Source of the DNA: Dulcicalothrix desertica PCC 7102
GTDB lineage: Bacteria > Cyanobacteriota > Cyanobacteriia > Cyanobacteriales > Nostocaceae
Assembly: GCF_003991905.1 (NCBI RefSeq)
Contig: NZ_RSCL01000003.1
Span: forward strand, 706 to 64,705
Direction of reading: 5' to 3'
DNA length: 64,000 nucleotides
This document shows, piece by piece, positions 6,229-21,591 of this stretch (its first letter is position 1; every line of letters begins with the position of its first letter). Position numbers and translations under genes: made by a program. The notes under the pieces are model-generated. The model did no database searches. It saw nothing but the letters and a program-made list of their open reading frames with translations, and was not told where the DNA came from.

Positions 6229-8350
6229 AATTTATATCATTAGGCATAGGTTGTAAGGGAACAAGACCTACCTTATTTAGTAAACACTGACCTTGGCGGG
6301 TTTTCAGCATATTAGCAAAAATTAACCCCGTTGGCTGAACATCACTCTTTTTAGGATACACTACATACACTGCATACCCCAAAGGATATTTTACTATACC
6401 ATCTGATTCAAATGTTTCGACATCAAAGTAATTGGCTTTATCACATAAGTCATCTGTTGGGTTAATTGCACGCCTTGTAACGCGACGAAATAGTGGTTGA
6501 ATCATTTGGTCATTTTTATCGACTATTGCTAGAGGATAACCCGAACACTGATCCCAGGTTTTGCTAAGAATACCGAAACTGATGATACCAGTAGTTTTTT
6601 TGTTTTCAATTGCTGTACGTATCCTGATTTGCGTAGTACCTGTGTTCTCACGAAATTGAGCAAACTTCTGCTCAAATAAACTTATATATTGCTCATTGTT
6701 TGCTAGAACTAGCTTTTTGAATTGCTGTACTGCCTCTGGTTCGGTTGGAACAAAAGGTTCAATCTTAAGACTAGAAAGATTTGGGTTAACTTGGCGCCAG
6801 TCTGTATATTCGCCTGTATATATCTTACGCAGTTGTTCAAGAGAAATTTTTCCACCCAAAGCGGCAGGGAGATTAGAGTTGTTTTTACTAAACGCGACAA
6901 ATACTAGCAAACCATCATAAGCAACTTTCTTGTTGTTTAAATTTATCATTTTCTCTTCTAATGAAGTCATAGCAAAGTCTTTTGATTGCTTTTCTACTTC
7001 ACCTAACACTATTTTTAAAGGTTGACTAGCTGTAGCAATATTCTCGGATACAACTCCTTGATACTCAAATGTCGTGAAAGCATTTTGTATGGGCTTGGTT
7101 AATATATCGTTTAATCTGCTCTCGTTCTCAGGCGCCTGTGTCAAAATAAAAGTCCAAGTGCCATTTTGTTCTCCAGTGTATGTAAATTTACCAGGAGGTA
7201 CGTTATTTACGTTGGAGAAATTCGGCACAAGTGCTTGCCAATCTGCAAATTTATCGTCATCCATTTTTTTTAGGTGCCAAAAATAATACCAGGCGCCACC
7301 AATCAATAAAAAGGCTAGTATCAAGAGCCAAAACCAAGGGTTTAAAAAAAACTTCGGGAAGCGTTTGTGTTCTTCAAGGTCAGACGATGGTAGTATACCG
7401 CTTTGATCAGGTTTAGGAAGTTTTAGCAGTTCAGTACGCGCGATTTCTGCACTTTTATAACTCGTGTCAAGAGAAAGCAAACGATACAGGTACTTCTTTA
7501 AATGAATATCAGTATCAGGCCATGCTTGATCCTCTTTAGGGTCAACAGATTGTGTTTTGCCGACCCACAACTGAAATGCTACTAACCCTAAAGCTTCTAA
7601 ATCTTGTGCCATTGTTGTAACTGCGGGTTGAGCAATGCTAGGAGGAACAAACAGGTTTTCCCAGATGGCTATATCACAAAGGTATGTCACAAATCTCTGT
7701 TTATTTTCTACTTTTATTAATACGCTATCTAAATTAATGTTGCCATGCTCCAAACCTCGCTGGATTTGATTCGAGGGAAAACGTAGTTTTTGTGAGTGCA
7801 TAAATACTAAAGTTTGTAGCACCTCATCTAAAAACTCGCGGACTTGCTCTGGCTCCATTGCACCATATTGCTTTAAGTACTGACGTAAAGTTTGGGATGG
7901 TTGTATATCTTTAGTAATTAAATAGCAGCGTTCTCCCTGTTCGGGTGCAATAGCTTCCCAAGTTTGAATCAAGCGAAAATTTTGAACTCGACCATCTGCT
8001 AATTCTACTCCTCCTATGCGTTTAAAAGTTTCTTTACGTTTGAAAGTTTCATCTAGGTTAAAACTACGACTCGGTAGTAAGTATTCTTTAATTAGTACTG
8101 GCTGTTGGTCTCTTATCTGTACACCCGAATATAAACGTCCAAACCCCCGCACACCCAAGTACTTTGTTACCCGATAACTACCTCTGTATCCTTTAATTTC
8201 TACTTCATCTGGTAAATTTGTTGGAAAACCACACTCAAAACAGAACTTAGCTCCCTTGACTTCCTTAATGGTTTCTAATGGTTTATCGCAATTCAAGGGT
8301 GAATTGTAAGAACACGGATACTCTTTGTAAAATGATTCTATAGAAAGCAT
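6200..8350 (-). CDS. Membrane pseudokinase fused to a PstS-like substrate-binding domain
   Basis: About 716 residues. The N-terminus has a CFECGF zinc-knuckle patch (Cys10-Cys40), then a Ser/Thr kinase-like fold. The ATP-site Lys is kept (VLIKEY), but the catalytic HRD loop reads HGN (His202-Asn204) and DFG reads DIA, so it is probably a pseudokinase. A transmembrane helix (about 337-359, FWLLILAFLLIGGAWYYF) leads to a C-terminal half resembling phosphate/PstS-type periplasmic binding proteins (GTTQIRIRTAIENKKTTGII, YPLGYAVYVVYPK). ATG at 8350 is preferred over TTG at 8356. The architecture suggests ligand sensing across the membrane with a non-catalytic cytoplasmic kinase fold. It lies between the two-component genes and an FHA gene in one operon. 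Confidence 0.82.
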   Translation of the reverse strand: MLSIESFYKEYPCSYNSPLNCDKPLETIKEVKGAKFCFECGFPTNLPDEVEIKGYRGSYRVTKYLGVRGFGRLYSGVQIRDQQPVLIKEYLLPSRSFNLDETFKRKETFKRIGGVELADGRVQNFRLIQTWEAIAPEQGERCYLITKDIQPSQTLRQYLKQYGAMEPEQVREFLDEVLQTLVFMHSQKLRFPSNQIQRGLEHGNINLDSVLIKVENKQRFVTYLCDIAIWENLFVPPSIAQPAVTTMAQDLEALGLVAFQLWVGKTQSVDPKEDQAWPDTDIHLKKYLYRLLSLDTSYKSAEIARTELLKLPKPDQSGILPSSDLEEHKRFPKFFLNPWFWLLILAFLLIGGAWYYFWHLKKMDDDKFADWQALVPNFSNVNNVPPGKFTYTGEQNGTWTFILTQAPENESRLNDILTKPIQNAFTTFEYQGVVSENIATASQPLKIVLGEVEKQSKDFAMTSLEEKMINLNNKKVAYDGLLVFVAFSKNNSNLPAALGGKISLEQLRKIYTGEYTDWRQVNPNLSSLKIEPFVPTEPEAVQQFKKLVLANNEQYISLFEQKFAQFRENTGTTQIRIRTAIENKKTTGIISFGILSKTWDQCSGYPLAIVDKNDQMIQPLFRRVTRRAINPTDDLCDKANYFDVETFESDGIVKYPLGYAVYVVYPKKSDVQPTGLIFANMLKTRQGQCLLNKVGLVPLQPMPNDINYACESVSKP

Positions 8351-8375
8351 ATACAAGTGAAAAATAAATAAAATA

Positions 8376-9062
8376 CTAAGCTTGGACTAATCCTAATCTG
8401 ATTGCAGTTACAATTGCCTGAGTTCTGCTACTAACTTTCAATTTCTCGAAAATACTTGTAAGATGAGCTTTGACTGTAGCGACGGTTACATACAGATTTT
8501 TGGCAATTTCGTCATTCGAGGCGCCTTGAGTTAACAATTGTAAGACTTCTTGTTCTCTTTCAGTTAAGTGCAATTGATGAGATGCCTTAGAGACAGCACT
8601 AGCATTTTGCTGAAAACAACGAAAAAATCCACTTGCTGCTTCTGGTGGCAAATATATTTCTGACCGAAGTACTGTGTTTATTGCATCACAAAGCTGATTT
8701 GCCACACGGTTTTTAAAAACATAACCAGAGGCGCCTTTTTGCATAGCTTGAAAAACCCAATCATCTTCTTGGTGAGCAGATAATACCAAGATTTTACCAG
8801 CGTAAGAAATATCTTTCAATCGTTCTATTGCGGTAATTCCATCGCTATTTACCAATTCTAAATCGAGCAAAATTATATCTGGATTTTTCTGAATTGCTAA
8901 TTTTACAACTTGCTCGACACAATTAGCTTCACCAACAATGTTTACAGCAAATGAAGCACTAGTACTATAAAAAGTTAGAAGAGTTCGCAGTCCTTCACGA
9001 AAGCGTTCTTCGTCGTCTACAAGCACAATAGATATTAGTTTATTGTTCATAATCTTTTCCAT
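8376..9062 (-). CDS. NarL/LuxR-family response regulator
   Basis: 228 residues. The receiver domain (about 10-130) has the acidic pocket VDDEE (Asp16/17) and phospho-acceptor Asp67 in IILLDLELV. A LuxR-type helix-turn-helix (about 165-222) has LTEREQEVLQLLTQGASNDE and ATVKAHLTSIFEKL. It is encoded 17 bp after the histidine kinase gene, so the two form a cognate pair. The start could be 9062 or the in-frame ATG at 9050, which has a GGAAAAG site upstream. The divergent CIS operon and the pseudokinase/FHA genes are plausible targets, judged by position only. Confidence 0.93.
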   Translation of the reverse strand: MEKIMNNKLISIVLVDDEERFREGLRTLLTFYSTSASFAVNIVGEANCVEQVVKLAIQKNPDIILLDLELVNSDGITAIERLKDISYAGKILVLSAHQEDDWVFQAMQKGASGYVFKNRVANQLCDAINTVLRSEIYLPPEAASGFFRCFQQNASAVSKASHQLHLTEREQEVLQLLTQGASNDEIAKNLYVTVATVKAHLTSIFEKLKVSSRTQAIVTAIRLGLVQA

Positions 9063-9079: not shown

Positions 9080-10207
9080 TTAATTCTTTTTAGTAGGTAA
9101 AATTATAGAAAACTGTGTACCTCCTCCTGATACACTGTGTGCCCAAATATTTCCATAATGGTCTAATACTATTTTCTTGGCTATAGTTAAACCTAACCCT
9201 GTACCTCCTGGGCGCCGTGAGTAAAAAGGGGTGAACATTTTTTGCATGTCTTCTTGTGATACTCCTGGTCCTTCGTCTAAAATCTTGATTAATATTTCTT
9301 CATGAAATACTTGCCAGCTAAAAGTAATAACGCCATTTTCATAGCTAAAGTGAATTGCATTGCCAAGCAAGTTATCAAACACTTGCTTCATCTGCAATCT
9401 ATCTAACGGTAATGTAGCAGATGTTTGAGGTACATGAACTTTTAATTTTTTGTCATTAATTAATGGCTGAAAAGATTTTATACTTTCGTCTACTAGGCTT
9501 CTTAAGTCTTGAGAAGTTATCTTTAGTATAGTTCCTTGACCGCAGGAGATGATGTCCGTTAAATTTGCGTCTAAATCTTCTACGCTCTCACAAATTACTT
9601 TTGCTTGTTCAATATACGAGCTATCTTGCAGTCCTATAAGTAAATTTTGTGCATAAAGTTTTATCAATGCTATATAGTTCCGCAGTTGATGACCAACTTT
9701 ATGAAGGACATGCTCTAGTAACTGAATTTGATATTTATGCTGTAATTTTTCTGAGTAAACATCAATATATTTACCTAGAATTTTTGCAGCATTCCTTACA
9801 TAATTTTGAAGTTGTAAAGAAAGAGGTTTATGAGTAACTATTTGGATGTATTCTGGTTTTTGATTTTTATAGCCGATAGGACAAACATAAGTAAATGACT
9901 CAGTAGGATGTGCGAGTTTAAACTCCGAAACATCCCACACGTGAGGAAAATCTGTTAACCAAGTTTCTGACCTGATATATGCTATATCTTTTTGAGAAAA
10001 ACTAGGTTGATTATCTGCGTAACAAATTACCTCTTCATGTGATTTTGATACTGAATCGTAGTAGACAATACGGGCAAAGCAAATTGTTCCCTGAGAAACT
10101 AGTTGCTCTGCTTGCAGTTCTACAAAGCTTCTGACACTTTCTACATTTGGCGCTTTCTTTAAATGAAAGTCATTTTTTGGTGTCTCGAGAGAGAAGCTGA
10201 TGGTCAT
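9080..10207 (-). CDS. Soluble sensor histidine kinase
   Basis: About 375 residues from the ATG at 10207, which has AAGGTGAG upstream; a GTG at 10225 is an alternative. The first 150 residues resemble a GAF-like sensor without transmembrane segments. The dimerisation helix carries His173 in KVGHQLRNYIALIK, a variant H-box. The ATPase domain shows the N-box DNLLGNAIHFS, G1 DEGPGVS and G2 GGTGLGLTIAKK. It is the first gene of the leftward operon and is paired with the LuxR-type regulator. The signal is unknown; the sensor is cytosolic. Confidence 0.9.
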   Translation of the reverse strand: MTISFSLETPKNDFHLKKAPNVESVRSFVELQAEQLVSQGTICFARIVYYDSVSKSHEEVICYADNQPSFSQKDIAYIRSETWLTDFPHVWDVSEFKLAHPTESFTYVCPIGYKNQKPEYIQIVTHKPLSLQLQNYVRNAAKILGKYIDVYSEKLQHKYQIQLLEHVLHKVGHQLRNYIALIKLYAQNLLIGLQDSSYIEQAKVICESVEDLDANLTDIISCGQGTILKITSQDLRSLVDESIKSFQPLINDKKLKVHVPQTSATLPLDRLQMKQVFDNLLGNAIHFSYENGVITFSWQVFHEEILIKILDEGPGVSQEDMQKMFTPFYSRRPGGTGLGLTIAKKIVLDHYGNIWAHSVSGGGTQFSIILPTKKN

Positions 10208-10625
10208 AGCTTTACTCACCTTCACAACTAAATTTTCCCTTTACTCTTATTTAGTGGGGGTTTAAATAGGGTTATGCAATATGAAGCTGTTTTGTTAAGT
10301 TTTCTTAATATATCTTTATATTGCGTACAAATCGGGCTTCCTTATGAAAAATTAATTTTTTATTTGTAAAGTTTATTGTATGTAGCTCGGTCTGTTGAAG
10401 GTTTAGGAATTATAAAAATGCTTCAGTTTCCTAAAGATATATCAATGTAGTAATAAATTTGGGGTAACGGGCAAGGATTAGAATTCCACAAAGCTGTTGT
10501 ATAAAGCTGTTGTATAAAGCGAAATCAAATCTCGACAAAAGTCTAATTACCACAAAGGTTTGCTTCTTATAACCTAGATGTATACGAAAAACATTCTTTT
10601 GTGCGTGTAGAAATCATGCGAACAC
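10208..10625. promoter_or_regulatory. Divergent promoter region between signalling and structural CIS operons
   Basis: About 420 bp, AT-rich, between two divergently transcribed operons. It holds a 13-bp tandem repeat (AAAGCTGTTGTAT, two copies plus a partial third, 10490-10520). No confident -35/-10 pair was identified. Its position makes it the likely control point linking the two-component system to the injection apparatus. Confidence 0.5.
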
Positions 10626-11498
10626 ATGCTTATTTTTATTCTTCAAACCCTAGCTTCTATTCTTGCTGGAGGTACATCAGTTAATAATACGGAACAAATT
10701 GAGTTTAGTCATCCGAGTAAGCGTAAAGAAGAAGGTGGTGGCGCCATTCTCAATTTGTATATATATGATGTTCGTGAGAGTAAGCAGATCCAACATTCGG
10801 GAAGGCAAGTTGAGCGCAAGCTAACACAAGCTTTGCAACCTGCTACTGTAAACTGGTCTCCATCCTGGTTTGATGTCTCTATGGTGCTAACGGCTTGGGA
10901 TAGGACAGCTTTAGGTGAACATTACCTGCTGTCGCAAGCTTTGGCGTTACTACTGCGTCACCGGGCACTGAAGGAAGAGTTTTTGGTACCGGAGTTGCGC
11001 GGTTTTGGAAGTTTGAATATGACGGTTTGCGTGGAGCCGCAAATTGAGGCTGGGTCTTTATGGAGTGCGCTAACTATACCTTTACGTCCAGCTTTGTATT
11101 TGATGGTGACAGTGCCAGTAGAGCCGCAAGTGTCTCCAGTCTCTCTAGTTTGGGAACGAATTTTTCGACTTAAGAATAGTTTTGATACTGAAAATCTAGG
11201 TGAAAATGGAAATGGAAATGGAAATGGAAATATTGAAACTATCACCAAGCGGGTAGTAGTCGCAGGAGTTGTCAGAAGTGCTGTTACCAATCTGCCAATG
11301 CAGCAAATAGAAGTTAAGGTGATAGGAACACAAAAGTCGTCTACTACCAATAAAGAAGGGTTATTTTATTTTGAAGAACTTCGTAATGGTAACTACGTGT
11401 TAGAAATTACGAGTTCAAGATATTTACCCTGTCAAGTGAATGCATTGGTAGATGGTGTGGGCTGTACCTTCAAGGAAATCTCGTTAACTCCTGTATAG
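10626..11498 (+). CDS. DUF4255 (Pvc16-type) CIS protein with a carboxypeptidase-regulatory-like C-terminus
   Basis: 290 residues. Residues 1-180 match the DUF4255 / Pvc16 N-terminal family, a tail-terminator/cap-type component of contractile injection systems (LNLYIYDVRES, HYLLSQALALLLRH, RPALYLMVTVPVE). A Gly-Asn linker encoded by GGAAAT repeats (11203-11230) leads to a small beta-sandwich (about 208-290) resembling carboxypeptidase-regulatory / CNA-B-like domains (VVRSAVTNLPMQQIEVKVIG). First gene of the rightward structural operon, immediately before the sheath gene as in other CIS loci. The added domain may decorate the tail end; that is inference. Confidence 0.85.
   Translation: MLIFILQTLASILAGGTSVNNTEQIEFSHPSKRKEEGGGAILNLYIYDVRESKQIQHSGRQVERKLTQALQPATVNWSPSWFDVSMVLTAWDRTALGEHYLLSQALALLLRHRALKEEFLVPELRGFGSLNMTVCVEPQIEAGSLWSALTIPLRPALYLMVTVPVEPQVSPVSLVWERIFRLKNSFDTENLGENGNGNGNGNIETITKRVVVAGVVRSAVTNLPMQQIEVKVIGTQKSSTTNKEGLFYFEELRNGNYVLEITSSRYLPCQVNALVDGVGCTFKEISLTPV
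11203..11230 (+). repeat. GGAAAT microsatellite in the DUF4255 gene
   Basis: Four to five hexamer units of GGAAAT/GAAATG encode the Gly-Asn linker between the two domains. The period is a multiple of three, so length changes would keep the frame. Confidence 0.7.
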
Positions 11499-11540
11499 TG
11501 CTGAGTGCTGAGTGCTGAGTGTTGAGTGCTGAGTGCTGAG
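11497..11540 (+). repeat. Heptameric short tandem repeat (GCTGAGT)n
   Basis: About six copies of a 7-bp unit, one with a GTTGAGT variant, start at the DUF4255 stop codon and fill the gap before the sheath gene. The same unit recurs at 63394-63462 in inverse orientation and in short form near 63250-63268. Confidence 0.9.
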
Positions 11541-11594
11541 TATGGTTGTGGGTGGGTGATATTTTTTACATTGATTAGATTGGAGATATTTTTA

Positions 11595-13259
11595 ATGCCA
11601 AGACTTGATTATTTTGCTCCTGGTGTCTATATCGAAGAAATAGACCGAGGTAGTCGTCCTATAGAAGGTGTTAGTACGGCAATAGCTGGATTTGTTGGCT
11701 TTACTGAAGATGTGCGCGGTGGGGCTGAGTTGTTTAAGCCGATGCTTGTTACTAACTGGACGCAGTATTTAAACTACTTTAGTCGTCCTAATTCGGATGG
11801 TTATACAGATTTTAATGCTTACTTGCCTTTTGCTGTCTACGGCTATTTTATGAATGGTGGTGGCCGCTGTTGGATTACGAGTATTGGTACGCAGTTACCT
11901 AACGCTCCTAAAACACCTGACCCACAACCAGCTTCATTGCGGATTACTGGTCGAGGCAACCGTCCGGCGCTACGTTTTAATATGCGTCCTGAGCAATTAG
12001 CAGGCGGCACGATTACTATCTTGATTAGTGATAGTGGACCTCGTGCGTTACCAGAAGGAACAGAAGGGTCGGCACCACCAAATACAGGTGAATACTTTAA
12101 GGTGCAAATTCGTCGAGGAGATGAAACGCTTGAAGAGTATGACAACTTGACGATGAACCGTGATGGGAATGCTCAATTTGCTACTTATGCGGTTGCGGCA
12201 TTGCGAAATTCGATGTTCATAACTATCGAGGATATATCTCAAACTGGACAACCTTTAGCGCGTCGTCCTGGGAACGGTCAATACGAACTTGCAGCACCAT
12301 TACTTGCCGCAGAACCTGCTAGATTTTCTAGCGATGTTGAGGGTGTACGCGACGACCGTACAGGGGTACGTGGTTTATTTGAAATCGATGAAATTACGAT
12401 GGTTGCTTGTCCTGATTTGATGCGTGCGTATCAGTCAGAGTTGATGAACTTAGACCAAGTTCACGGCATAATGGAATTAATGCTTAGTATGTGCGAAGGC
12501 GCCAACAATGGTGATATTCCCAACCCACCTAACCGCATGGTAGTTCTTGATTCTCCTCCTGACTGTCCCAAACCACAGCAGGTTGTAGAATGGTTGAACC
12601 GATTTAATCGTCGTTCAATGTTCGGCGCCCTTTATTATCCTTGGATTAAAGTCGCTAATCCCCGCGACCGTGGTAATCCAATTAGTGTTCCTCCTTGCGG
12701 TCATGTTATGGGAGTTTGGGGTCGTACTGATGAAACTCGCGGAGTTTACAAGGCGCCTGCCAACGAAGTACCTAGAGGTGTAATCGGTTTAGACTACGAT
12801 ACTAACTTCCGTGAGCAAGAACTTTTAAACCCATTGGGTATAAATTGTATTCGTAGATTTCCAAATCGAGGTATTCGGATTTGGGGCGCCCGTACACTAG
12901 TTGAACCTGATAAAACTGAATGGCGTTATATCAGCGTTCGTAGATTGATTAGCTACATCGAAAAATCTTTGGAACTAGGTACTCAATGGGTAGTATTCGA
13001 GCCAAACGACGAAGATTTGTGGGCGCGCGTGCGACGAACAGTCAGTAATTTCTTGGAAAGAATCTGGCGTGAAGGAGCATTATTTGGTGCCTCGCCCGAA
13101 CAAGCATTTTACGTCAAATGCGATGAAGAATTAAATCCACCAGAAACCAGAATTTTAGGTCGTTTATACATTGAAGTCGGTTTATGTCCGGTTAGACCAG
13201 CAGAATTTGTGATCATCCGTGTCAGCCAGTGGAACGGAATTGAAGACGACGAACAATAG
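11595..13259 (+). CDS. Contractile injection system sheath protein
   Basis: 554 residues from the ATG at 11595; upstream in-frame codons lie in repeat-derived DNA. The opening DYFAPGVYIEEIDRGSRPIE is the classic tail-sheath N-terminus. The conserved C-terminal domain, which makes the contractile handshake, contains RRLISYIEKSLELGTQWVVF and ARVRRTVSNFLERIWREGAL. The middle (about 120-250) is the variable surface domain. Sheath subunits form hexameric rings around the tube and contract to drive it into a target. It is the only sheath gene in the window, followed directly by tube genes. Confidence 0.97.
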   Translation: MPRLDYFAPGVYIEEIDRGSRPIEGVSTAIAGFVGFTEDVRGGAELFKPMLVTNWTQYLNYFSRPNSDGYTDFNAYLPFAVYGYFMNGGGRCWITSIGTQLPNAPKTPDPQPASLRITGRGNRPALRFNMRPEQLAGGTITILISDSGPRALPEGTEGSAPPNTGEYFKVQIRRGDETLEEYDNLTMNRDGNAQFATYAVAALRNSMFITIEDISQTGQPLARRPGNGQYELAAPLLAAEPARFSSDVEGVRDDRTGVRGLFEIDEITMVACPDLMRAYQSELMNLDQVHGIMELMLSMCEGANNGDIPNPPNRMVVLDSPPDCPKPQQVVEWLNRFNRRSMFGALYYPWIKVANPRDRGNPISVPPCGHVMGVWGRTDETRGVYKAPANEVPRGVIGLDYDTNFREQELLNPLGINCIRRFPNRGIRIWGARTLVEPDKTEWRYISVRRLISYIEKSLELGTQWVVFEPNDEDLWARVRRTVSNFLERIWREGALFGASPEQAFYVKCDEELNPPETRILGRLYIEVGLCPVRPAEFVIIRVSQWNGIEDDEQ

Positions 13260-13331: not shown

Positions 13332-13787
13332 ATGCCAGGAGAATTTCTTACAGCTTGTAAATTTTACTTTTCAGCAGGCGACATCACAGATAAATTCATC
13401 AAAGAAATCAGTGGCTTGGGTATAGAAAATACCCCCGCACAAGAAGTTCACGGCTCATCAAAGCAAGGAAAACTCTCGCGGCAAGCAACGCCTACTGTTG
13501 TAAAATTTACAAATATAACAATAAAAGTTATCGCTACTGATGATATAGACCTGTATAAGTGGTATCAAGACTGTAACGAAGACATGGGAGACCCGCGAAA
13601 ATGGTCAGATAATCGTAAGGAAGGTTCAGTAGTTGCTTACGACCAAAAAGGTGAGGAAAAAGCACGTTGGGACATCAAATTTTGTTATCCCTGTAAATAC
13701 ACAGGTCCTACCTTAACAGCATCTGGTGGCGATATGGCAAATGAGACCATCGAATTGGTTCACGAAGGAATTAAACGTGTGAAGTAA
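13332..13787 (+). CDS. Contractile injection system tail tube protein (gp19-like)
   Basis: 151 residues of the gp19 tube family: EFLTACKFYFSAGDITDKFI at the start and a closing ETIELVHEGIKRVK. A strong AAAGGAG site lies 12 bp upstream of the ATG. The position right after the sheath is where the main inner-tube subunit is usually encoded, so this is the best candidate for it. It differs from its paralogue at 13825 in length and in the central block, which is typical of CIS loci with two tube-like proteins. Confidence 0.93.
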   Translation: MPGEFLTACKFYFSAGDITDKFIKEISGLGIENTPAQEVHGSSKQGKLSRQATPTVVKFTNITIKVIATDDIDLYKWYQDCNEDMGDPRKWSDNRKEGSVVAYDQKGEEKARWDIKFCYPCKYTGPTLTASGGDMANETIELVHEGIKRVK

Positions 13788-13824: not shown

Positions 13825-14316
13825 GTGGTACAAGCAGGTGGACAAAATTCCGAAATTCTTACGGCACATCGTTTCTATTTAGGACTAGCGCTAGACGGGC
13901 AAAAAGAGTCTGAAGCTTACTTTTTGGAGTGTCAAGGTTTTACAAGAACACAGGATGTAATTGAAATTTGTGAAGTTACTTCTCAAAGTTTGGGAAACGG
14001 ACAATCTAAAGGTTTGCCAGTTAGAACCAAAATTCCAGGCAATGTTAAGAGTGGCAATATTACCCTTCGTAGAGGTATGACCAACTCGGTAGATTTTTGG
14101 AACTGGTTTGATAAGGTTCAAGCAGGTCAATGGGCAAAGCAACGAAAACTAGTTTCTTTGTCGATTTACAATCAAGCAAGTGTCGAAGTTGCTAGGTTTG
14201 AGTTAGCTGGAGCTTGGCCGACTCGTTACAAAATTGCCGATGTTAATGCGCGCAGCACTGAAATAGAAATTGAGGAAGTCGAAGTTGCTTTTGAGGAATT
14301 TAAACGGGTGAAATAA
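13825..14316 (+). CDS. Second gp19-like tube/tube-initiator protein
   Basis: 163 residues starting at GTG with a GGGGGAAGA purine stretch upstream. It carries the gp19 core LRRGMTNSVDFWNWFDKVQ and the closing EIEEVEVAFEEFKRVK. Its central block is closer to the leftward tube paralogue at 1003 than to the neighbour at 13332. In CIS loci a second tube-like protein often joins the tube to the baseplate, which is a reasonable role here but unproven. Confidence 0.92.
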   Translation: MVQAGGQNSEILTAHRFYLGLALDGQKESEAYFLECQGFTRTQDVIEICEVTSQSLGNGQSKGLPVRTKIPGNVKSGNITLRRGMTNSVDFWNWFDKVQAGQWAKQRKLVSLSIYNQASVEVARFELAGAWPTRYKIADVNARSTEIEIEEVEVAFEEFKRVK

Positions 14317-14336: not shown

Positions 14337-14675
14337 ATGTTTGCTACAGAGTTTGAGTTTACATTGCCGAAGGGATATATAGACACCTCGGGCAACCTCC
14401 ATCGTAAAGGTGTAATGAGGTTATCAACAGCGATAGACGAGATTTCACCTTTACGTGACCCGCGCGTAATTGCGAATCCTGCTTATGCCACCATTATTAT
14501 TTTGGCGCGCGTGATTACTTGTTTAGGCGCCTTATCTGAAGTAACCCCTGCAATAGTAGAAAACTTTTTTAGTCAGGATTTAAATTACCTCCAAGATTTC
14601 TACCGTCAAATCAATGGGTTGGAAGATAAATCCTCACAAGAAACAGTAAATTCTTCTGAACCAGCTGTTTGTTAA
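14337..14675 (+). CDS. Tail-assembly-like CIS protein, paralogue without zinc motif
   Basis: 112 residues. The N-terminal 85 residues align well by eye with the next gene: FATEFEFTLPKGYIDTSGN, GVMRLSTAIDEI, NPAYATIIILARVI and YLQDFYRQIN. These features resemble the phage tail assembly / chaperone-like proteins found after tube genes in CIS loci. The zinc-binding tail of its paralogue is replaced by a Ser/Glu-rich end. A GGAGG site precedes the ATG. It is probably a tandem duplicate with divided function. The name is by resemblance and position. Confidence 0.7.
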   Translation: MFATEFEFTLPKGYIDTSGNLHRKGVMRLSTAIDEISPLRDPRVIANPAYATIIILARVITCLGALSEVTPAIVENFFSQDLNYLQDFYRQINGLEDKSSQETVNSSEPAVC

Positions 14676-14698: not shown

Positions 14699-15073
14699 AT
14701 GCGCCGTAAGCAACTTTGTACTGAATTTAATTTTACGCTTCCTAGAGGATTAATTGACTCGCAAGACCGAGTACATCGTCATGGTGTAATGCGTTTAGCT
14801 ACTGCCAAGGATGAAATTTGGGTGCAGCAAGAACGTGTAGTTCAGGATAATCCAGCTTACGGCGCTTTAGTTATGCTTTCGCGCGTTATTTCACGCTTAG
14901 GTAGTCTTAACTCTGTGACTTCTGAACAGTTAGAAGGGTTAGTACTACGTGACATTTCATACCTGAGAGAATTCTATAATCGAATTAATCAGCAAGGAAA
15001 TACGCATATTCCAACGCATTGCCCACATTGTGATACGCAATTTAATGTGAGGTTAGAGTTCGCGGGGGAGTAA
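14699..15073 (+). CDS. Tail-assembly-like CIS protein with CxxC zinc motif
   Basis: 124 residues, paralogous to the preceding gene (TEFNFTLPRGLIDSQDRVHR, GVMRLATAKDEI, NPAYGALVMLSRVI). The C-terminus adds CPHCDTQFNV, a two-cysteine half of a zinc ribbon that may complete a site in a dimer or pair with its His residues. Its stop overlaps the start of the DUF6760 gene (TAATG), so the two are translationally coupled. A role in tube or baseplate assembly is inferred from genomic position. Confidence 0.72.
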   Translation: MRRKQLCTEFNFTLPRGLIDSQDRVHRHGVMRLATAKDEIWVQQERVVQDNPAYGALVMLSRVISRLGSLNSVTSEQLEGLVLRDISYLREFYNRINQQGNTHIPTHCPHCDTQFNVRLEFAGE

Positions 15074-15243: not shown

Positions 15244-16926
15244 ATGAAAGTAAAAGTTACTACATCTCCAACACAAACCGAATTCGAGGAAGTTGACCTT
15301 ACTTTAACAACTAGACGAGGAAGCGAATGTTTAATAGGTCGTTCTCCTGATTCTGATTTAGTTCTCGATAGCGATGATGTTAGTCGATTACATGGAAAGT
15401 TCTTTTCTCAAGGAGGAAATTACTATTTCTGCGACGTTGGTAGTAGAAATGGCTCTATAGTCAATGGTAAATTGGCTGAAAAAGACCGTTCATACGTACT
15501 AAGAAATGGGGATATTATCCGCATTGGTGATTTTATGCTGATGTTGGAAGATGAAATGCCTGATTCCCAGCAAGCGGAAACTGTTGTTAGAATTATTAAT
15601 CCTTCGGTATTTTCTAATTGGCGCTCTCAAAATGAAGGTGTTGCACAGGAACCACAACCTGCGATTAATCAATTAAGTAATGAATCAGTTAGTTCGCACC
15701 CCGCTGAAACTCCTCATGAACAAAAAGAACAACAAGAAGTTGTCAATACCTCAAGAGAGGTAGAACAAAAAGAACAACCAGCAGAACAAGTTGAACAATC
15801 TGAACCAACTTTTATTCAGCCAGAAAATATTACTATACCTCAGAGCGCTATTGAATCTCCACACGAAAGCAACGAAGCATTTGAACATCATGATGAGCCT
15901 ACTGTAGTTCCATTTAGTGATATCAACCAACATAACGCTGCAACTGATGTTGAACATCAAACCGAGAATGTTGCTAGCACAGAACATGAGTTGGAGCAAG
16001 AGGACTTAAATCACGATTACACGGTTGTTCAAGCACACGATGTTGTTAGTCAAGATAATGCTGCAACTGATGTTGAACATCAAACCGAGAATGTTGCTAG
16101 CACAGAACATGAGTTGGAGCAAGAGGACTTAAATCACGATTACACGGTTGTTCAAGCACACGATGTTGTTAGTCAAGATAATGCTGCAACTGATGTTGAA
16201 CATCAAACCGAGAATGTTGCTAGCACGGAACATGAGGAAGTTGCAACACATACACATGACGAGCATGAAACAGAAGAAGCTCATCATGAGGAAGCGCGCG
16301 AAACTATCGAAGCTGTAAGTAATGATAATGAGAAGGTGGAAGTAGATACACCATCTCAACAACATGTAGAGGAACAATTAGAGGAAGAATTAATGCCTGA
16401 AAGTGTTTCTGTCTCAACACAACCGCTCAAGGGCGAAGAAATAGCTACTAGTCACGACGAAGAAGTTTTATTAGACACCGAAGAACCAGAATTAGAGGAA
16501 GCTGAATCAGAAAAATCATTTATACAGCTTGCTAAAGTTCTTGAAGAAAAGCAAATAGTGCTTGTAGCTCACGATAGCAAAAAATCTGAACTAACAGAGC
16601 TTGTTGCTGAACACGAGGAATTTTTATCGTACTGCTTAACAAGAACATGGCAAACTTTCAGCGATGATTTGTATAAACAAACTGGTTTAAGCGTTACGCA
16701 AGAAATTCCTCCAGCAAATTCGGGAGGGTATCAAGCTATCAACTCGTTAGTTAACTCTGGAGAAATTTTAGCTGTTATTTTCATTAGAGATTTGATGGCG
16801 CCTCAAAAGAATCAGGCAAGTGAAGAAGCTTTGTTAAGAATATGTAATATTAACAATGTTTTACTTGCTACCAATTTACCTACAGCGCGGGCAATATTAC
16901 ATTATCTCAAGAACTTGAAGGATTAA
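15244..16926 (+). CDS. FHA domain protein with repeat linker and methylglyoxal-synthase-like C-terminus
   Basis: 560 residues in three parts. An FHA domain (about 22-100) shows LIGRSPDSDLVL, VSRLHGKF and SRNGSIVNGK, all residues for phosphothreonine binding. An acidic Glu/His/Gln linker (about 115-430) includes three near-identical 41-residue repeats. Residues 436-560 follow the methylglyoxal synthase fold: KQIVLVAHDSKKSELTELV opens like the family's VAHDxKK, and LLRICNINNVLLATNLPTAR matches its closing block. The family's TGTTG phosphate loop is TRTWQ and SGPxGGDxQ is NSGGYQ, so catalysis is doubtful and ligand sensing more likely. It follows the CIS assembly genes in one orientation, 18 bp after DUF6760. 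Confidence 0.85.
   Translation: MKVKVTTSPTQTEFEEVDLTLTTRRGSECLIGRSPDSDLVLDSDDVSRLHGKFFSQGGNYYFCDVGSRNGSIVNGKLAEKDRSYVLRNGDIIRIGDFMLMLEDEMPDSQQAETVVRIINPSVFSNWRSQNEGVAQEPQPAINQLSNESVSSHPAETPHEQKEQQEVVNTSREVEQKEQPAEQVEQSEPTFIQPENITIPQSAIESPHESNEAFEHHDEPTVVPFSDINQHNAATDVEHQTENVASTEHELEQEDLNHDYTVVQAHDVVSQDNAATDVEHQTENVASTEHELEQEDLNHDYTVVQAHDVVSQDNAATDVEHQTENVASTEHEEVATHTHDEHETEEAHHEEARETIEAVSNDNEKVEVDTPSQQHVEEQLEEELMPESVSVSTQPLKGEEIATSHDEEVLLDTEEPELEEAESEKSFIQLAKVLEEKQIVLVAHDSKKSELTELVAEHEEFLSYCLTRTWQTFSDDLYKQTGLSVTQEIPPANSGGYQAINSLVNSGEILAVIFIRDLMAPQKNQASEEALLRICNINNVLLATNLPTARAILHYLKNLKD
15937..16239 (+). repeat. 123-bp coding tandem repeat, about 2.5 copies
   Basis: Units start at 15937, 16060 and 16183 (partial), each beginning GCTGCAACTGATG, and are nearly identical at the nucleotide level. 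Each full unit encodes 41 residues. Such identity implies a recent expansion or ongoing homogenisation. Confidence 0.92.
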
Positions 16927-16954: not shown

Positions 16955-16978
16955 GTAGGGTGGGCACTGCCCACGTTA
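16955..16978. repeat. Dispersed GTGGGCA-C-TGCCCAC hairpin
   Basis: Perfect 7-bp arms at 16960-16966 and 16968-16974 lie between the FHA-MGS gene and the next gene. It is similar in style to the GTGGGGTGGGCATCC repeats found elsewhere in the window. The in-frame GTG/ATG candidates inside it are not used as starts here. Confidence 0.6.
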
Positions 16979-16998
16979 CCCTCTTATATATTTATCAT

Positions 16999-19251
16999 AT
17001 GGAAAGTAATAATGTTATAGGCGCCAGTCTTTCAACAACAAGTTTAAGGTTTTACCCGAATAAAGGTGAGGTTTCTTTTGAAGTTACGGTTAATAATGAT
17101 AGTGACCGTTTTGCCAATTTTCAATTAGAACTTATCGCTGCTGGTGAAATTCGGAAACTTGATTATCGCTGGTATCGACTTGAACCAGAAGTTGCTGCTG
17201 CTAAACCTCCTGGTAGCAGTACTAAGTTCCAAGTTTTTATTTTTAATACACCTATACCTGCATTTGTTGGTACAGTTAATCTGACTGTCAAAATATTTTC
17301 TCCTCAGTTAGCACGAGAGCGTAGACTTCCACTACGTTTGGAAATTGAGCAAGATGATAAACCTATTCTTCTTAGTGTTGAATTACCAATACGCGCGTTT
17401 CAAGTGTATCCTGGTAACTCGATAGATATACCTGTGCGGGTTAGAAATCAGGGACAAGTAGCTAGTAATGTGCTACTGCGTTTTACGGGTATTGATTCAT
17501 CTTGGGTGACTAATAGTGCAGAACGTCGGTTTACAATAAATCCTGGTAGTCAGACAGAACTTACTTTTCAATGCCAACCACCATCTGTGGTTCAAGCTCC
17601 TAGTCAAAATTATGTCTTTACTGTTGAAGCTACAAGTAATAATAGTTATCCAGCAGATGCAAAAGGTAATATAGAAGTGTTACCTGTGGGCTTTATTAAG
17701 TTTAGCACCCCACAGTATAAACAAAGAATTCCGCAGCGGGACCCGTGGTTGCCTGACTGGAAGTCAAAAACTGCTTCATACGATTTGCTATTTAAAAATA
17801 ACAGTAATCTTCGTCAAGAAATTAATGTACAAATGAGGGGTAGAGATTCAGGAAAATGTACATTTAAAAAGTTTCCTGAAGTTGCAAATCTAGATTTAGC
17901 AGAAACAGCAAAAGTTGTTTTAGAAGTTACAACAAAACGTCCTTGGGTTGGAGTTGGGAAAACTTTATTTTTAGAAGCAAGAGCAGAACTATCTGACCAA
18001 AGGCTTGGTAGTACAGACCCTGCAACTCAAAGTTTAGAGTTAAAGGTTTTACCAATTATACCACTGTGGCTTCAGTTAGCGATTCTTGCCTTGATAGCTG
18101 CTTTACTAGCTTTACTGTTTAGAGAAGAAGCTATTGCACATACAGGTTCTGTAAATTCTGTTCGTGTTAGCGGTATTGGCTCGTCTGTTGTTAGTGCTTC
18201 AGATGATTGTACACTACGATTATGGAGAATAGGTAATAATACATTGCCGCCAGAAGAAACAGTAAAATTTTCAGGAAAACCTTTAGCTTGTAGTAAACTT
18301 CAAAAACGCCAAGGATTATTAGCTATTGCTAACGATATTATTAGAGTTGTGCGGTTTGTGCCAGTCGAAAATGACCGCGTTGCTATTGGTCTAGATAATG
18401 GAGTTATCGAGTTAAGAAAAGTACCTACTGGTCAACAAAATATTACACTCCAAGATTCTAAACAACCAGGTGATAGAGTATTTGATTTAGCGTTTACTAC
18501 AGACTCACTGAATTTATTAAGCGGTTCTGGCAAAGGTAAGTTAAGAAGATGGTCAAGAACAAGCGTTGACACAGAATTTCAGCAAGAGCCAGTTGAAACA
18601 TTTGACTTAGAAAAACAACAAAAGTTAACACAGTTTCAAATCCGCGCGATAGCTTTGAGTCCCGACGATAAAATAATTGTTGCTTCTGGTAACTTTAATC
18701 GTTTTTTAGTACTGCCTGTAGGTTCAAATCAATCTAATAATCAGTTTAAAGGTATATCTTTGCAAAAATTAGAAAAGTTGTCAGATGGAAGAGGGGGATC
18801 GAATGACTTTGTTTTTGGGTTAGCTTTTATTCCTAGCTCGAAAGAAAAAATTCTAGCAACCTCAGATTCATCGGGGTTTATTACAACTTGGAATTTAAGC
18901 CAATGCAAAACTGTAGGCAATACTCAACAACAAATCAATAATTTGGAATGTACACCACTAGACCGTTGGCAAGGTGAGTCATCAAACCCTATACGTACTT
19001 TAGCATTCAATGAAGATGGTAGTTTGCTAGTTAGTGGTGGAGATGACGGACGAGTTATTATATGGCACTTAACTCGTGAACATAAACTCGACAAAACAAA
19101 ATCACCAACAGGTAAAGGTATAATAATTTTTCCAAGTAACAAATATATCCCAAGTGACAAAAAAATTAATAGCGTTGACTTTAAAAGCAGCCAAAATGTT
19201 GTTATCAGTGGCAGTGAAGATTTTCAAGTGAGACTCCACCATATTAAATAG
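16999..19251 (+). CDS. Membrane protein: Ig-like domains, one TM helix, WD40 half
   Basis: About 750 residues from the ATG at 16999. Residues 1-345 form two to three Ig-like/NEW3-type beta domains (FEVTVNNDSDRFANFQLELI, IDIPVRVRNQGQVASNVLL). One helix follows (about 356-375, LQLAILALIAALLALLF), then a WD40-type propeller (about 378-750) with HTGSVNSVRVSG, SASDDCTLRLWRI and SGGDDGRVIIWHL. There is no signal peptide, so topology is uncertain. It shares the Ig-TM layout with the next gene, and both follow the CIS genes in the same direction. An anchoring or scaffold role for the apparatus at the membrane is plausible inference, since cyanobacterial CIS are known to be thylakoid-anchored. Confidence 0.8.
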   Translation: MESNNVIGASLSTTSLRFYPNKGEVSFEVTVNNDSDRFANFQLELIAAGEIRKLDYRWYRLEPEVAAAKPPGSSTKFQVFIFNTPIPAFVGTVNLTVKIFSPQLARERRLPLRLEIEQDDKPILLSVELPIRAFQVYPGNSIDIPVRVRNQGQVASNVLLRFTGIDSSWVTNSAERRFTINPGSQTELTFQCQPPSVVQAPSQNYVFTVEATSNNSYPADAKGNIEVLPVGFIKFSTPQYKQRIPQRDPWLPDWKSKTASYDLLFKNNSNLRQEINVQMRGRDSGKCTFKKFPEVANLDLAETAKVVLEVTTKRPWVGVGKTLFLEARAELSDQRLGSTDPATQSLELKVLPIIPLWLQLAILALIAALLALLFREEAIAHTGSVNSVRVSGIGSSVVSASDDCTLRLWRIGNNTLPPEETVKFSGKPLACSKLQKRQGLLAIANDIIRVVRFVPVENDRVAIGLDNGVIELRKVPTGQQNITLQDSKQPGDRVFDLAFTTDSLNLLSGSGKGKLRRWSRTSVDTEFQQEPVETFDLEKQQKLTQFQIRAIALSPDDKIIVASGNFNRFLVLPVGSNQSNNQFKGISLQKLEKLSDGRGGSNDFVFGLAFIPSSKEKILATSDSSGFITTWNLSQCKTVGNTQQQINNLECTPLDRWQGESSNPIRTLAFNEDGSLLVSGGDDGRVIIWHLTREHKLDKTKSPTGKGIIIFPSNKYIPSDKKINSVDFKSSQNVVISGSEDFQVRLHHIK

Positions 19252-19272
19252 TAATGAAATAGTACAATTGTT

Positions 19273-21591
19273 ATGTCTAATCCACTATCTGTTATTATTA
19301 ACCCACCTGGAATTCAATATGGAATGCCAGGGGACATTGTATCATTTTATGCTGTTGTAATTAATGAAGGAGACCAAAGCGCTGTTATTGATTTATTTTT
19401 TACTTTTGATGAGACGTTTCAAAAAATCAGTGGTTGGTCTAATTCTCCAAGGGCAAGTTTAGCTGTTGCTCCGAAAGAAAGTAGTGATGAAGTAACGTTT
19501 GATTTTGAAATTCCTGCAGATGCGCTTGCGGGAACTTATGATTATACTTTTGTCGTAGATTCTCCTGAGCATTATCCCCAAGATACTCCAATAAACTTTC
19601 CAGGACAACTCAAAGTTCTACTTAAAGAACAAACTGTAATCCGCGCGTTTGACCCAAGTTTTTCGATTATACCTGCCACAAATCCAAATAAACCTATAAC
19701 TTACAGGCTTGACCAACCTTTAAAAGTGGTGGTAAAAGTCGAAAATCGCTCAAACCGTGTAGACAGATTTCGCTTGACTTGTCCTGATTTAGATGATAAC
19801 TGGTTTAAAATATCTTATCCTGCTAGTGGAGTGGAAGGAGTGGGGTTGTTTGATGTTAGTGCGCTGGAACTCAACCCGAATACAGAAGGTGAAATTACTT
19901 TAGAACTTCGTCCTCCTATTGATACTCTCGCTGGCAGCTATTCTCCAACAATTCGCTTGCTTTCAGAAAATAATCCAGATTTGATACTACTGGATTTGAT
20001 ATATATAAACATACCAAGCAATTATCAAGTTGGTGTGGAGCTTCATACTATTTTAGGAACAGTTAGCCGCAAACCTGGTAAGTATCAATTAGTACTAAAT
20101 AATCAAGGTAATTTAATACGAGAGTTATTTTTTAATGCGAAAAGTAGGGATGAAGATGAAATTTGCACTTATAAATTTCAGCCTAAAGAATTAAGATTAT
20201 TACCAAACATGACTGAAGAAACAATTCTTACAGTTAAACCTAGACATTGGTGGCGCCGACCTTTATTTGGTCAATCGTTAGTAATAAATTTTCAAGTTGA
20301 TGTTATGGATATGCAAAGCTATCCTTTAGCTAACGCATCTCCCCAAGCTACTTTATCATGGAAAGCGCGTTCTTGGTGGCAATTTTTACTATTAATTTTA
20401 CTTGGACTCGGGTTATTTGCAGGCACCTCATATATTATCTGGAGAATTTTAAACCCTGACCCTTTAAAAATAGAAAGTTTTAGTGCTGATAGTCCTATAA
20501 TAACTGAAGGTGATGAAGTTACCTTAAGCTGGAGAATTAATAACTATAAACAAATGCAAAAACTGGCAGTGGTAACAAAACAACCACCAAATAATGACAT
20601 TGGGCTTAATTTTGATAAAAATAGTATTAACCAGCTAATTCGACCAAGTAAAGAGAATCAAAATCCTCCCTGTAGCATAGTTCAGGAAGAATTAAGATGT
20701 AATCGTGTTCCAACCGGAATTAAAAATCCAGGTAAATACGTTTTTGAACTGCAAGCCTCTCATTTACAAGGTTCATCACTTTTTAAGCGCACAAGTCAAA
20801 CCGATGTCAAAACCGCTGAAGCTGTTGAAGTTACGCAAAGACCAATCGCAGAAGTAATAGAATTTAAAGCAAATAAACGACAATATCGAAAAGGTGACAA
20901 AGTAAATCTAAAGTGGAAAATTACGCATCCTGAGTTAGTCTTTAAAGCTATAATTAATCTTAAAACTGCTGATAATTTACTAGCAATGCCGCCTTTAAAT
21001 ATACGATTTAAAGAGCCAAATGGTAGTGCCATTAAAAACCCTCAAGTCAAAGTTCCTTGTACACAAAATTTTCCAGATACACAATTCTTTAAATGCGAGA
21101 TTGATATTTTAGTCAACAAAGTTGGAATTTTTAGTCCCGAAATAGTAGTTGAAACTTTTAATGAATTCAATAGAAAAAGTATTAAACAAGCTGAAAGTAA
21201 AATTGAAATATTGCCAAAACCATTTCAACTTATCTTTTTTAGAATTAACAACCGTGACCAACCACCAAATCTAGAACTAAAGGAAGGAGAAAAGGTTACG
21301 CTCAGTTGGAGAGTAGAGGGAGAAAATATTCAAGTTAAATTAGACCCTTATGGCAATGTCAAACCAAGTGATACAATACAACTTCCTGTTATTACTAACT
21401 TCCCATCACGAGTTGCTCTTCAAGTAACCGATAAATCTGGTAAGCAGCAACCTCAAGAAAAAGCATTTATTATCACCGTCAAACCTAAACCTACTCCGAC
21501 TCCGACTCCGGCGCCTTTTCCATTTAACACCATCAACCCTAACATACCCATTCCATCACCAACAAGAAACCCTTTTATAACAAGACCCTAG
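19273..21591 (+). CDS. Membrane protein with Ig-like domains on both sides of one TM helix
   Basis: 772 residues. Residues 1-350 hold two to three CARDB/NEW3-like beta domains (VSFYAVVINEGDQSAVIDLF, KVVVKVENRSNRVDRFRL). A single helix (about 368-390, WWQFLLLILLGLGLFAGTSY) is followed by three more Ig-like modules with a recurring GDEVTLSWRI / GDKVNLKWKI / GEKVTLSWRV motif. A Pro-Thr tail (PKPTPTPTPAPFP) ends the protein. It starts 21 bp after the preceding Ig-WD40 gene and is clearly related to it. There is no enzymatic motif. Structural anchoring of the CIS is an inference from context. Confidence 0.8.
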   Translation: MSNPLSVIINPPGIQYGMPGDIVSFYAVVINEGDQSAVIDLFFTFDETFQKISGWSNSPRASLAVAPKESSDEVTFDFEIPADALAGTYDYTFVVDSPEHYPQDTPINFPGQLKVLLKEQTVIRAFDPSFSIIPATNPNKPITYRLDQPLKVVVKVENRSNRVDRFRLTCPDLDDNWFKISYPASGVEGVGLFDVSALELNPNTEGEITLELRPPIDTLAGSYSPTIRLLSENNPDLILLDLIYINIPSNYQVGVELHTILGTVSRKPGKYQLVLNNQGNLIRELFFNAKSRDEDEICTYKFQPKELRLLPNMTEETILTVKPRHWWRRPLFGQSLVINFQVDVMDMQSYPLANASPQATLSWKARSWWQFLLLILLGLGLFAGTSYIIWRILNPDPLKIESFSADSPIITEGDEVTLSWRINNYKQMQKLAVVTKQPPNNDIGLNFDKNSINQLIRPSKENQNPPCSIVQEELRCNRVPTGIKNPGKYVFELQASHLQGSSLFKRTSQTDVKTAEAVEVTQRPIAEVIEFKANKRQYRKGDKVNLKWKITHPELVFKAIINLKTADNLLAMPPLNIRFKEPNGSAIKNPQVKVPCTQNFPDTQFFKCEIDILVNKVGIFSPEIVVETFNEFNRKSIKQAESKIEILPKPFQLIFFRINNRDQPPNLELKEGEKVTLSWRVEGENIQVKLDPYGNVKPSDTIQLPVITNFPSRVALQVTDKSGKQQPQEKAFIITVKPKPTPTPTPAPFPFNTINPNIPIPSPTRNPFITRP

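Follow-up and report, generated by a model that had tools for sequence, protein, structure and literature searches.

To our knowledge, it is an open question what triggers the contractile injection systems (CIS) that stay inside the cell. Among proteins with a forkhead-associated (FHA) domain, OdhI is a switch that works by in-cis binding and autoinhibition. The methylglyoxal synthase (MGS) MgsA of Bacillus subtilis, reportedly an active enzyme without an FHA domain, is said to pair with Crh, a possible precedent for a regulator that docks on an MGS. A contractile machine controlled through an FHA domain is the type VI secretion system (T6SS) of Agrobacterium, where Fha binds phosphorylated Thr14 (pThr14) of TssL, in the peptide DLPpTVVEI, and thereby activates secretion; excerpts of that paper give dissociation constants for Fha and the pThr14 peptide of 1.58 mM (8-mer) and 0.54 mM (20-mer), and binding of the unphosphorylated 8-mer was not detected (PMC3953482). 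In Anabaena PCC 7120, a thylakoid-anchored CIS has a hexamer of Cis11-Cis12 heterodimers in its baseplate and has been linked to stress-induced ghost cells; the main text of that paper does not mention FHA, forkhead, methylglyoxal or kinase (PMC8894136).

Here we describe a gene of the filamentous cyanobacterium Dulcicalothrix desertica PCC 7102 that joins an FHA domain to an MGS domain within a CIS operon. The gene occupies positions 15244-16926 of the window, by which we mean the whole 64,000-nucleotide stretch that was analyzed; features lie on its forward strand unless stated otherwise. The product, FHA-MGS, is a conserved accessory of one cyanobacterial CIS subtype. With a probability of about 0.4, we propose that this accessory works as a phospho-threonine adaptor that would dock on the baseplate, its MGS domain serving as a scaffold.

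The gene starts with ATG, and its open reading frame (ORF) of 560 residues contains both domains, as identified by profile matches and in a full-length AlphaFold model, so that the fusion claimed in a preliminary description of this DNA is borne out. In the model the FHA and MGS domains are ordered, and 301 residues have a predicted local distance difference test score (pLDDT) below 50, nearly all of them in the linker. The N-terminal FHA domain, also named in that description, spans residues 30-95 (15331-15528) and matches PF00498 with an E value of 1.5e-17 and 64.2 bits, above the curated cut-off of 20.7. The contacts of FHA domains with phospho-threonine are marked by a signature of GR, SxxH and NG. 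Residues G32, R33, S47, R48, H50, N69, G70 and N74 are invariant in 28 aligned full-length rows, and because the GR, SRxH and NG residues are among them, the domain has this signature. Directly behind it lies the motif ETVVR (Thr113; 15577-15591), in which Thr113 and Val114 are invariant in 28/28 aligned rows; a site resembling ETV[VFY][RK] follows the FHA domain across the FHA-MGS set.

The C-terminal domain (residues 434-556; 16543-16911) matches the NCBIfam methylglyoxal synthase model NF003559 with an E value of 8e-21 and 74.3 bits, below the curated cut-off of 84, and the solved MGS 2xw6 in a search of the Protein Data Bank (PDB; E 4e-17). An AlphaFold model of the domain made with 48 rows has a pLDDT of 94.9 and a predicted TM score (pTM) of 0.90. 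Its top Foldseek match is the solved MGS 1wo8 (E 7e-13, TM 0.90, root mean square deviation 1.0), and the MGS fold that had been read from the sequence is thus confirmed by structure prediction. The profile search proposed along with it, using PF02142, gave no match to the 560-residue protein at E <= 1. When the whole genome was searched with the same model, the FHA-MGS gene was missed and two other places only were found, in frames of 1098 and 522 residues. Since the fold, NF003559 and the PDB search all find MGS, the PF02142 result is a false negative of the Pfam model, and relied on alone it would mislead. No second place in the D. desertica genome matches the MGS domain of FHA-MGS better than E 0.3.

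The MGS domain is catalytically degenerate. The alignment comprised 52 homologues and, for comparison, 10 rows of ordinary MGS; we read it using E. coli MGS numbering and taking the roles of the catalytic and phosphate-binding residues from excerpts of PMC7843640. The catalytic residues D71, H98 and D101 are absent in 52/52 homologues: D71 is replaced by tyrosine in 50 and by phenylalanine in 2, the H98 position holds Gly, Asn or Ser, and the D101 position Asn or Ser, in every one. The phosphate loop has largely gone as well, with T45 kept in 3/52, T48 in 0/52, S65 in 6/52 and G66 in 2/52. Three pocket residues are retained, H19 and D91 in 52/52 and K23 in 45/52. Because D71, H98 and D101 are lost throughout, the domain is read as a pseudo-enzyme; active methylglyoxal production by FHA-MGS was ruled out on the same grounds. 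The altered catalytic loops of the preliminary description are real, but the segment that aligns to E. coli T45-G49 (TGTTG) is W-Q-T-F-S and not TRTWQ.

The retained pocket invites another reading, in which the MGS fold, like its counterpart in carbamoyl-phosphate synthetase (CPS), takes up a small ligand and gates FHA binding. The persistence of H19, D91 and K23, together with tyrosine or phenylalanine at D71 in all 52 rows, suggests that the old pocket is under selection, and MGS domains of CPS are also matched by structure. They stand further down the Foldseek list, at E about 5e-5 compared with 7e-13 for the MGS enzymes, and at each of the phosphate-holding positions T45, T48, S65 and G66 between 46 and 52 of the 52 homologues have a different residue. 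Metabolite sensing by the domain is weakened by these changes, and we consider a ligand-gated FHA domain unlikely, if worth keeping in view. The earlier proposal that the protein may couple a metabolite signal to phospho-dependent control therefore survives in part: its phospho half is plausible given the like threonine motifs in linker and baseplate and the Ser/Thr kinases near some loci, and its sensor half is not supported.

MGS domains occur in other fusions too. In other cyanobacteria, frames of 420-492 residues contain MGS (L042, L044-L053 and L055; for example L044:4478-5767), and the one scanned, L044, joins it to a YegS/DAGK-type lipid kinase domain. By eye, the MGS catalytic residues are kept in most of these rows, though not all are kept in L052, L053 and L055. 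In the relative G066, an MGS domain is joined to a pair of EF hands at L054:4730-5554.

The linker between the domains (residues 109-430; 15568-16533) is acidic, with 25% Asp plus Glu and 3% Lys plus Arg, and is predicted to be disordered, with pLDDT values under 50 for almost all of residues 130-425. Its repeats, like its acidity, had been seen from the sequence. A tandem repeat at 15928-16236, in frame, with a 123-bp unit present in 2.5 copies, has a consensus unit with one threonine motif, and the copies of that motif in the window linker are multiplied by this repeat. Outside the repeat, reading of the linker gave TFIQ in EPTFIQ (Thr189; 15808-15819), which also enters the enrichment counts below, and the variant TVVP in EPTVVP (Thr220; 15901-15912). 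Within it, TVVQ in DYTVVQ occurs at Thr260 (16021-16032) and Thr301 (16144-16155), both of which were also found by a whole-genome pattern match.

Reading of the linkers across FHA-MGS proteins gave the repeated motif [D/E]-x-T-[F/V/I]-[V/I]-Q. The set consists of 48 FHA-MGS proteins plus that of the window, 49 in all; L091, L102 and L131 are excluded, and the linkers of L123 and L138, which the end pattern missed, were delimited by length. The pattern T[FVI][VI]Q, derived from the same 49 linkers in which it was counted, has 117 matches compared with a mean of 3.1 in shuffled linkers (maximum 8 in 300 shuffles). An aspartate or glutamate stands at position -2 in 111 of the 117, the serine version has 2 matches, and 45/49 proteins have at least one copy. 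The pattern from the window only, T[FV][IV]Q, was counted in the 48 other linkers, which had already been seen beforehand, and gave 88 matches against a shuffle mean of 1.87 (maximum 8 in 500 shuffles), with 0 for its serine version, 1 for asparagine and 0 when reversed. In 12 less related linkers it occurs 19 times (shuffle mean 0.57, maximum 4). FHA ligands require threonine, not serine (excerpts of PMC3953482), and the strong preference of the motif for threonine over serine is consistent with an FHA ligand. The T-V-V core of the Agrobacterium ligand occurs in the motif, and it is for this reason that we propose a phospho-threonine adaptor.

A DNA pattern for the threonine motif was scanned over the 11.4-Mb genome of D. 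desertica and found three places, two in the FHA-MGS linker and one in the gene of baseplate protein J on contig C73. The J site, PEDTFVQVRDIE, sits in a variable loop. In a first set of J proteins, E[DQ]TxVQ was seen by eye in 12/13 rows of the cognate CIS and in 0/11 others. In a larger set, [DE]xTx[VI]Q occurs in 44/57 cognate rows, which are part of about 83 listed, and in 0/32 rows of other CIS types, two of which (L198 and L199) are pieces in one genome (G028). Across the 57 cognate rows the loop columns hold threonine in 49, valine at +2 in 48 and glutamine at +3 in 50; position +1 and the residues after the glutamine are more variable. Residues 408-441 of the J query are an insertion relative to the solved J 9gtp_1K, which has four residues there, and the loop is therefore probably exposed.

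The surroundings of related loci were also scanned. In about 59 kb around the locus of relative G004, [DE]xT[FVISQ][VI]Q occurs solely in FHA-MGS (five copies) and J (one copy). In G006 and G001, one copy of the threonine motif each lies in a long protein encoded upstream of the hub gene. These two proteins resemble, over their C-terminal part, a 1348-residue protein upstream of the hub gene in G004 (L200:3458-7504), which has no Pfam or PHROG match and is a possible tape measure or cargo.

Kinases that might modify such threonines are encoded near some of the loci. In 16/51 loci FHA-MGS is followed on its own strand, at a distance of no more than 320 bp, by a Ser/Thr protein kinase (STPK) of 720-757 residues with HRD and DFG motifs; that of G004 is a CHASE2-Pkinase protein. 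An STPK also lies within 3 kb behind J in D. desertica itself, where it has HRD and DFG, and in 3/10 other J neighborhoods read.

From these features we propose the following mechanism. A local Ser/Thr kinase would phosphorylate the motif threonines, and the FHA domain would bind phospho-threonine in the J loop, so that FHA-MGS docks on the baseplate. It may also bind phospho-threonine in its own or sister linkers, leading to autoinhibition or to a multivalent assembly that would be adjusted through the number of repeats. MGS enzymes are homohexamers; an oligomer of the MGS domain could thus gather about six FHA arms, a possible match to the six-fold baseplate. Assembly or firing would then be permitted or restrained by phosphorylation, in the manner of Fha binding to pThr-TssL in the T6SS. 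In its boldest form, the proposal is of a separate licensing pathway by threonine phosphorylation in Pvc/Afp-type CIS, in which kinase-marked J loops are capped or gathered by a hexameric pseudo-enzyme with six FHA arms and expandable motif arrays, repeat number tuning the firing threshold; this version is doubtful.

Several observations weigh against docking on J as the function of the motif. The backward control pattern has two places genome-wide, so one extra match is at chance level, and the J site is notable for its location alone. The strict linker pattern, with Phe, Val or Ile at +1, fits 19/57 cognate J loops only: the +1 residue of the loops is most often serine (23/57), and T[SQ][VI]Q occurs just 5 times in the 49 linkers. 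In 13/57 cognate loops [DE]xTx[VI]Q is missing, 8 of them without any threonine there, and in G005 the loop motif is lost while one linker motif is kept, so both need not co-occur. The contrast of 44/57 with 0/32 is itself confounded by the shared ancestry of the cognate J proteins. On the linker side, 4/49 linkers have no T[FVI][VI]Q at all, and asparagine replaces the threonine in 17 matches, compared with 117 for threonine. No canonical STPK lies beside FHA-MGS in the window, and 35/51 loci have none within 320 bp, some of these flanks being short.

A rival reading is a switch directed at the protein itself, in which the FHA domain binds its own juxta-FHA and linker threonines, by autoinhibition like that of OdhI and GarA or in a head-to-tail polymer, and the likeness to J reflects chance, or common descent with no binding involved. 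The invariance of Thr113 beside the FHA domain, the strong enrichment of the linker motif and the poor fit of the strict pattern to J favor it. The restriction of the motif to FHA-MGS and J in the G004 stretches speaks against it, as does the position of the J motif in a loop special to the CIS subtype linked with FHA-MGS. We judge this reading improbable on balance and give docking on the baseplate, as set out above, as the working proposal.

The linkage itself was examined in 51 FHA-MGS loci, a lower bound because the class was drawn from the best 80 loci listed in a contig scan. Members match with E values no higher than 2e-38, after which come ordinary MGS with values from 2e-20 upwards. 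By title, every one of the 51 is cyanobacterial; most belong to Nostocales genera, one is a Plectonema and one a metagenome-assembled genome of Chamaesiphon. FHA and MGS share one frame, of 480 to 867 residues, in 48/51; in the exceptions there is no FHA in the MGS frame, which is broken into two ORFs in L091 and cut by contig ends in L102 and L131. The upstream neighbor is a gene for a tail-assembly-chaperone-like protein in 44/51 loci, and a sheath gene lies in the fetched flank of 41/51. Three of the 51 loci are at a contig end and not judgeable, and in four the flank has no match to any CIS gene that was looked for. The survey of loci that the preliminary description had suggested thus finds 44/51 linked to CIS, and homologues do not occur mainly away from CIS genes. 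In a tree of 42 rows FHA-MGS forms one clade with support of 100/100, whose sister is not resolved in that tree.

Surveys of whole genomes gave a similar picture. In 150 genomes including that of D. desertica, an MGS match of the FHA-MGS class (E 1e-33 or better) is present in 27; the 26 relatives have FHA and MGS in 23 frames, with 1 broken and 2 cut. A sheath of at least 78% identity occurs in 21/150, all among these 27, and the remaining 6 have no such sheath, one of them having a decayed tail operon. In 217 genomes of the family, again including D. desertica, a cognate J of at least 67% identity is found in 79, and the MGS class is present in 79/79; this survey scored the MGS domain, not FHA genome by genome, and shared ancestry inflates the counts. 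Working in the other direction, 13/92 MGS-class genomes have no cognate J at E 1e-150, two of these assemblies being 89% and 93% complete. Orphan MGS-class genes of this kind occur in several genera, and their ratio of nonsynonymous to synonymous substitution (dN/dS) is 0.18-0.41 for domain pairs, compared with 0.04-0.59 in CIS-linked pairs, values that mix time with and without a CIS. Because the orphan genes show constraint and 13/92 genomes are without a cognate J, FHA-MGS may have a second, CIS-independent job, which also counts against a purely CIS-bound function.

In its extreme form, this would make FHA-MGS a host signaling protein that merely shares an operon with the CIS, a reading that could draw on the constrained orphans in several genera and on the four named loci without CIS genes in their flanks. 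The shared operon slot in 44/51 loci, the 79/79 genomes with a cognate J and the 21/21 genomes with the sheath all argue for an accessory of the CIS, and a mere host protein is a long shot. Least probable of all is a cargo or tape-measure-like part, which the slot behind two tail-assembly-chaperone-like ORFs and the length range of 480 to 867 residues might suggest: tape measures are expected to be long and helical, the linker is predicted disordered, an FHA domain and a pseudo-MGS suggest regulation, and some loci retain FHA-MGS although tail genes are absent.

Two loci deserve mention on their own. G064 (L065:9869-16759) has a decayed tail operon, in which the second tube and cap are short and neither a sheath nor a first tube was found; the FHA-MGS frame is intact, and a cognate J lies elsewhere in the genome. 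In L089 a CIS tail operon with FHA-MGS is situated on the 190-kb Brasilonema octagenarum plasmid pBOCT2, which carries an IS630-family transposase gene between tail genes. Among viral contigs, 28 pattern matches for relatives were obtained and none was confirmed by tblastn.

In the window, the genes upstream of FHA-MGS form the CIS operon that had been recognized from the sequence. They encode a Pvc16-like cap protein (10626-11498; PF14065), the contractile sheath (11526-13259; PF17482 and PF04984), a gp19 tube protein (13332-13787; PF06841) and a second one (13825-14316; PF06841, with NF053770 CIS5 below cut-off). Two tail-assembly-chaperone-like ORFs follow, at 14337-14675 (phrog_508, E 1.5e-4) and at 14699-15073 (phrog_508, E 1.2e-6), the latter being the neighbor conserved in the 44 loci. 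Downstream of FHA-MGS are genes for a WD40-repeat protein (16960-19251; PF00400) and a large protein with a weak NEW3-like profile match (19273-21591). Both are found near some homologues; in some relatives the pair (16960-21591) stands behind FHA-MGS, and in others elsewhere in the locus.

On the reverse strand, a divergent histidine-kinase-like gene (9080-10225; PF02518), which is the divergent neighbor in many loci, is followed by a LuxR-type response regulator (8376-9062; PF00072 and PF00196). A pseudokinase-like protein with a PBP-like part (6200-8356; weak PF00069 and PF12849 matches, both below cut-off) has, by eye, HGN for HRD and DIA for DFG, and its gene lies near many homologues. 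Next to it is the second FHA protein of the locus (5599-6228; PF00498, E 1.8e-11). At the far side of the locus, also on the reverse strand, there is a third gp19/tail-tube-like gene (1003-1527), whose G004 counterpart matches PF06841 at E 4.8e-39. A scan for promoters and terminators gave results at chance level. A PADLOC search of three proteins gave no match, and anti-phage defense was set aside for want of support from those three.

A search for gp25 found no place on the contig of the window. A CIS without a baseplate was nevertheless rejected, as contig C73 of the same genome holds a baseplate module with gp25, J and an STPK with MORN repeats; its hub, spike, Tail_P2_I-like and DUF4159 genes were assigned by order and likeness to the scanned G004 genes. 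The distance between J and FHA-MGS is 19-22 kb in seven relatives (G001-G006 and G025); G011 has 36 kb between them and G017 has 104 kb. Because of this spacing, and because the window begins 706 bases into its contig (C3), C73 may abut the start of C3. The genome contains three CIS sets: that of the window and C73, a related one on C19 (L083, L084) and a divergent one on C16 (L085, L086). The J of the C19 set is 57.7% identical, and there the counterpart of the pseudokinase-like gene adjoins another FHA gene. The C16 set includes a protein of 1102 residues, a size like that of Cis12 of the Anabaena thylakoid-anchored CIS.

Searches of the open-licence literature in PubMed Central found no combination of MGS with an FHA domain, and no cyanobacterial CIS with an FHA domain or with a threonine kinase. 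By title, CIS with forkhead-associated leads there to the T6SS and to PVC nanosyringes; CIS baseplate with threonine phosphorylation leads to the T6SS only, by title or start of the abstract; and extracellular contractile injection with FHA leads to works unrelated by title. These searches agree with the preliminary statement that no CIS component of this architecture had been described. Within that literature we found no description of an FHA/pseudo-MGS accessory of a CIS, and the link between linker and J through the threonine motif is new here. A threonine motif shared in like form by FHA-MGS and the baseplate could act as an on/off tag, and its echo in one named baseplate loop makes CIS triggering directly testable. 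If the proposal is true, phospho-threonine control is not confined to the T6SS but reaches CIS more widely, and the MGS fold has been recruited as a signaling scaffold.

FHA-MGS can be set beside several described systems. With the Anabaena thylakoid-anchored machine it shares its setting, a cyanobacterial CIS, and it appears to belong to a different subtype. With MgsA it shares the fold (TM up to 0.91), at about 28-35% identity in structure alignments; unlike MgsA, it has lost D71, H98 and D101 in 52/52 homologues and the phosphate loop in most, and it is fused to an FHA domain. It resembles the OdhI and GarA switches in having an FHA domain beside a conserved threonine motif, with possible in-cis binding, but the threonine is C-terminal to the FHA domain and there are an extra linker and an MGS domain; the NCBIfam OdhI model gives 45.9 bits with FHA-MGS, below its cut-off of 200. 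The T6SS pathway of PpkA and Fha also places an FHA protein in the locus of a contractile machine, here with Ser/Thr kinases near some of the loci, and the candidate ligand core T-V/F-V resembles DLPpTVVEI (excerpts of PMC3953482). In contrast to that pathway, the tail and baseplate genes belong to the Pvc/Afp kind, baseplate J takes the place of TssL as candidate target, and the FHA domain is joined to a motif-rich linker and a pseudo-MGS.

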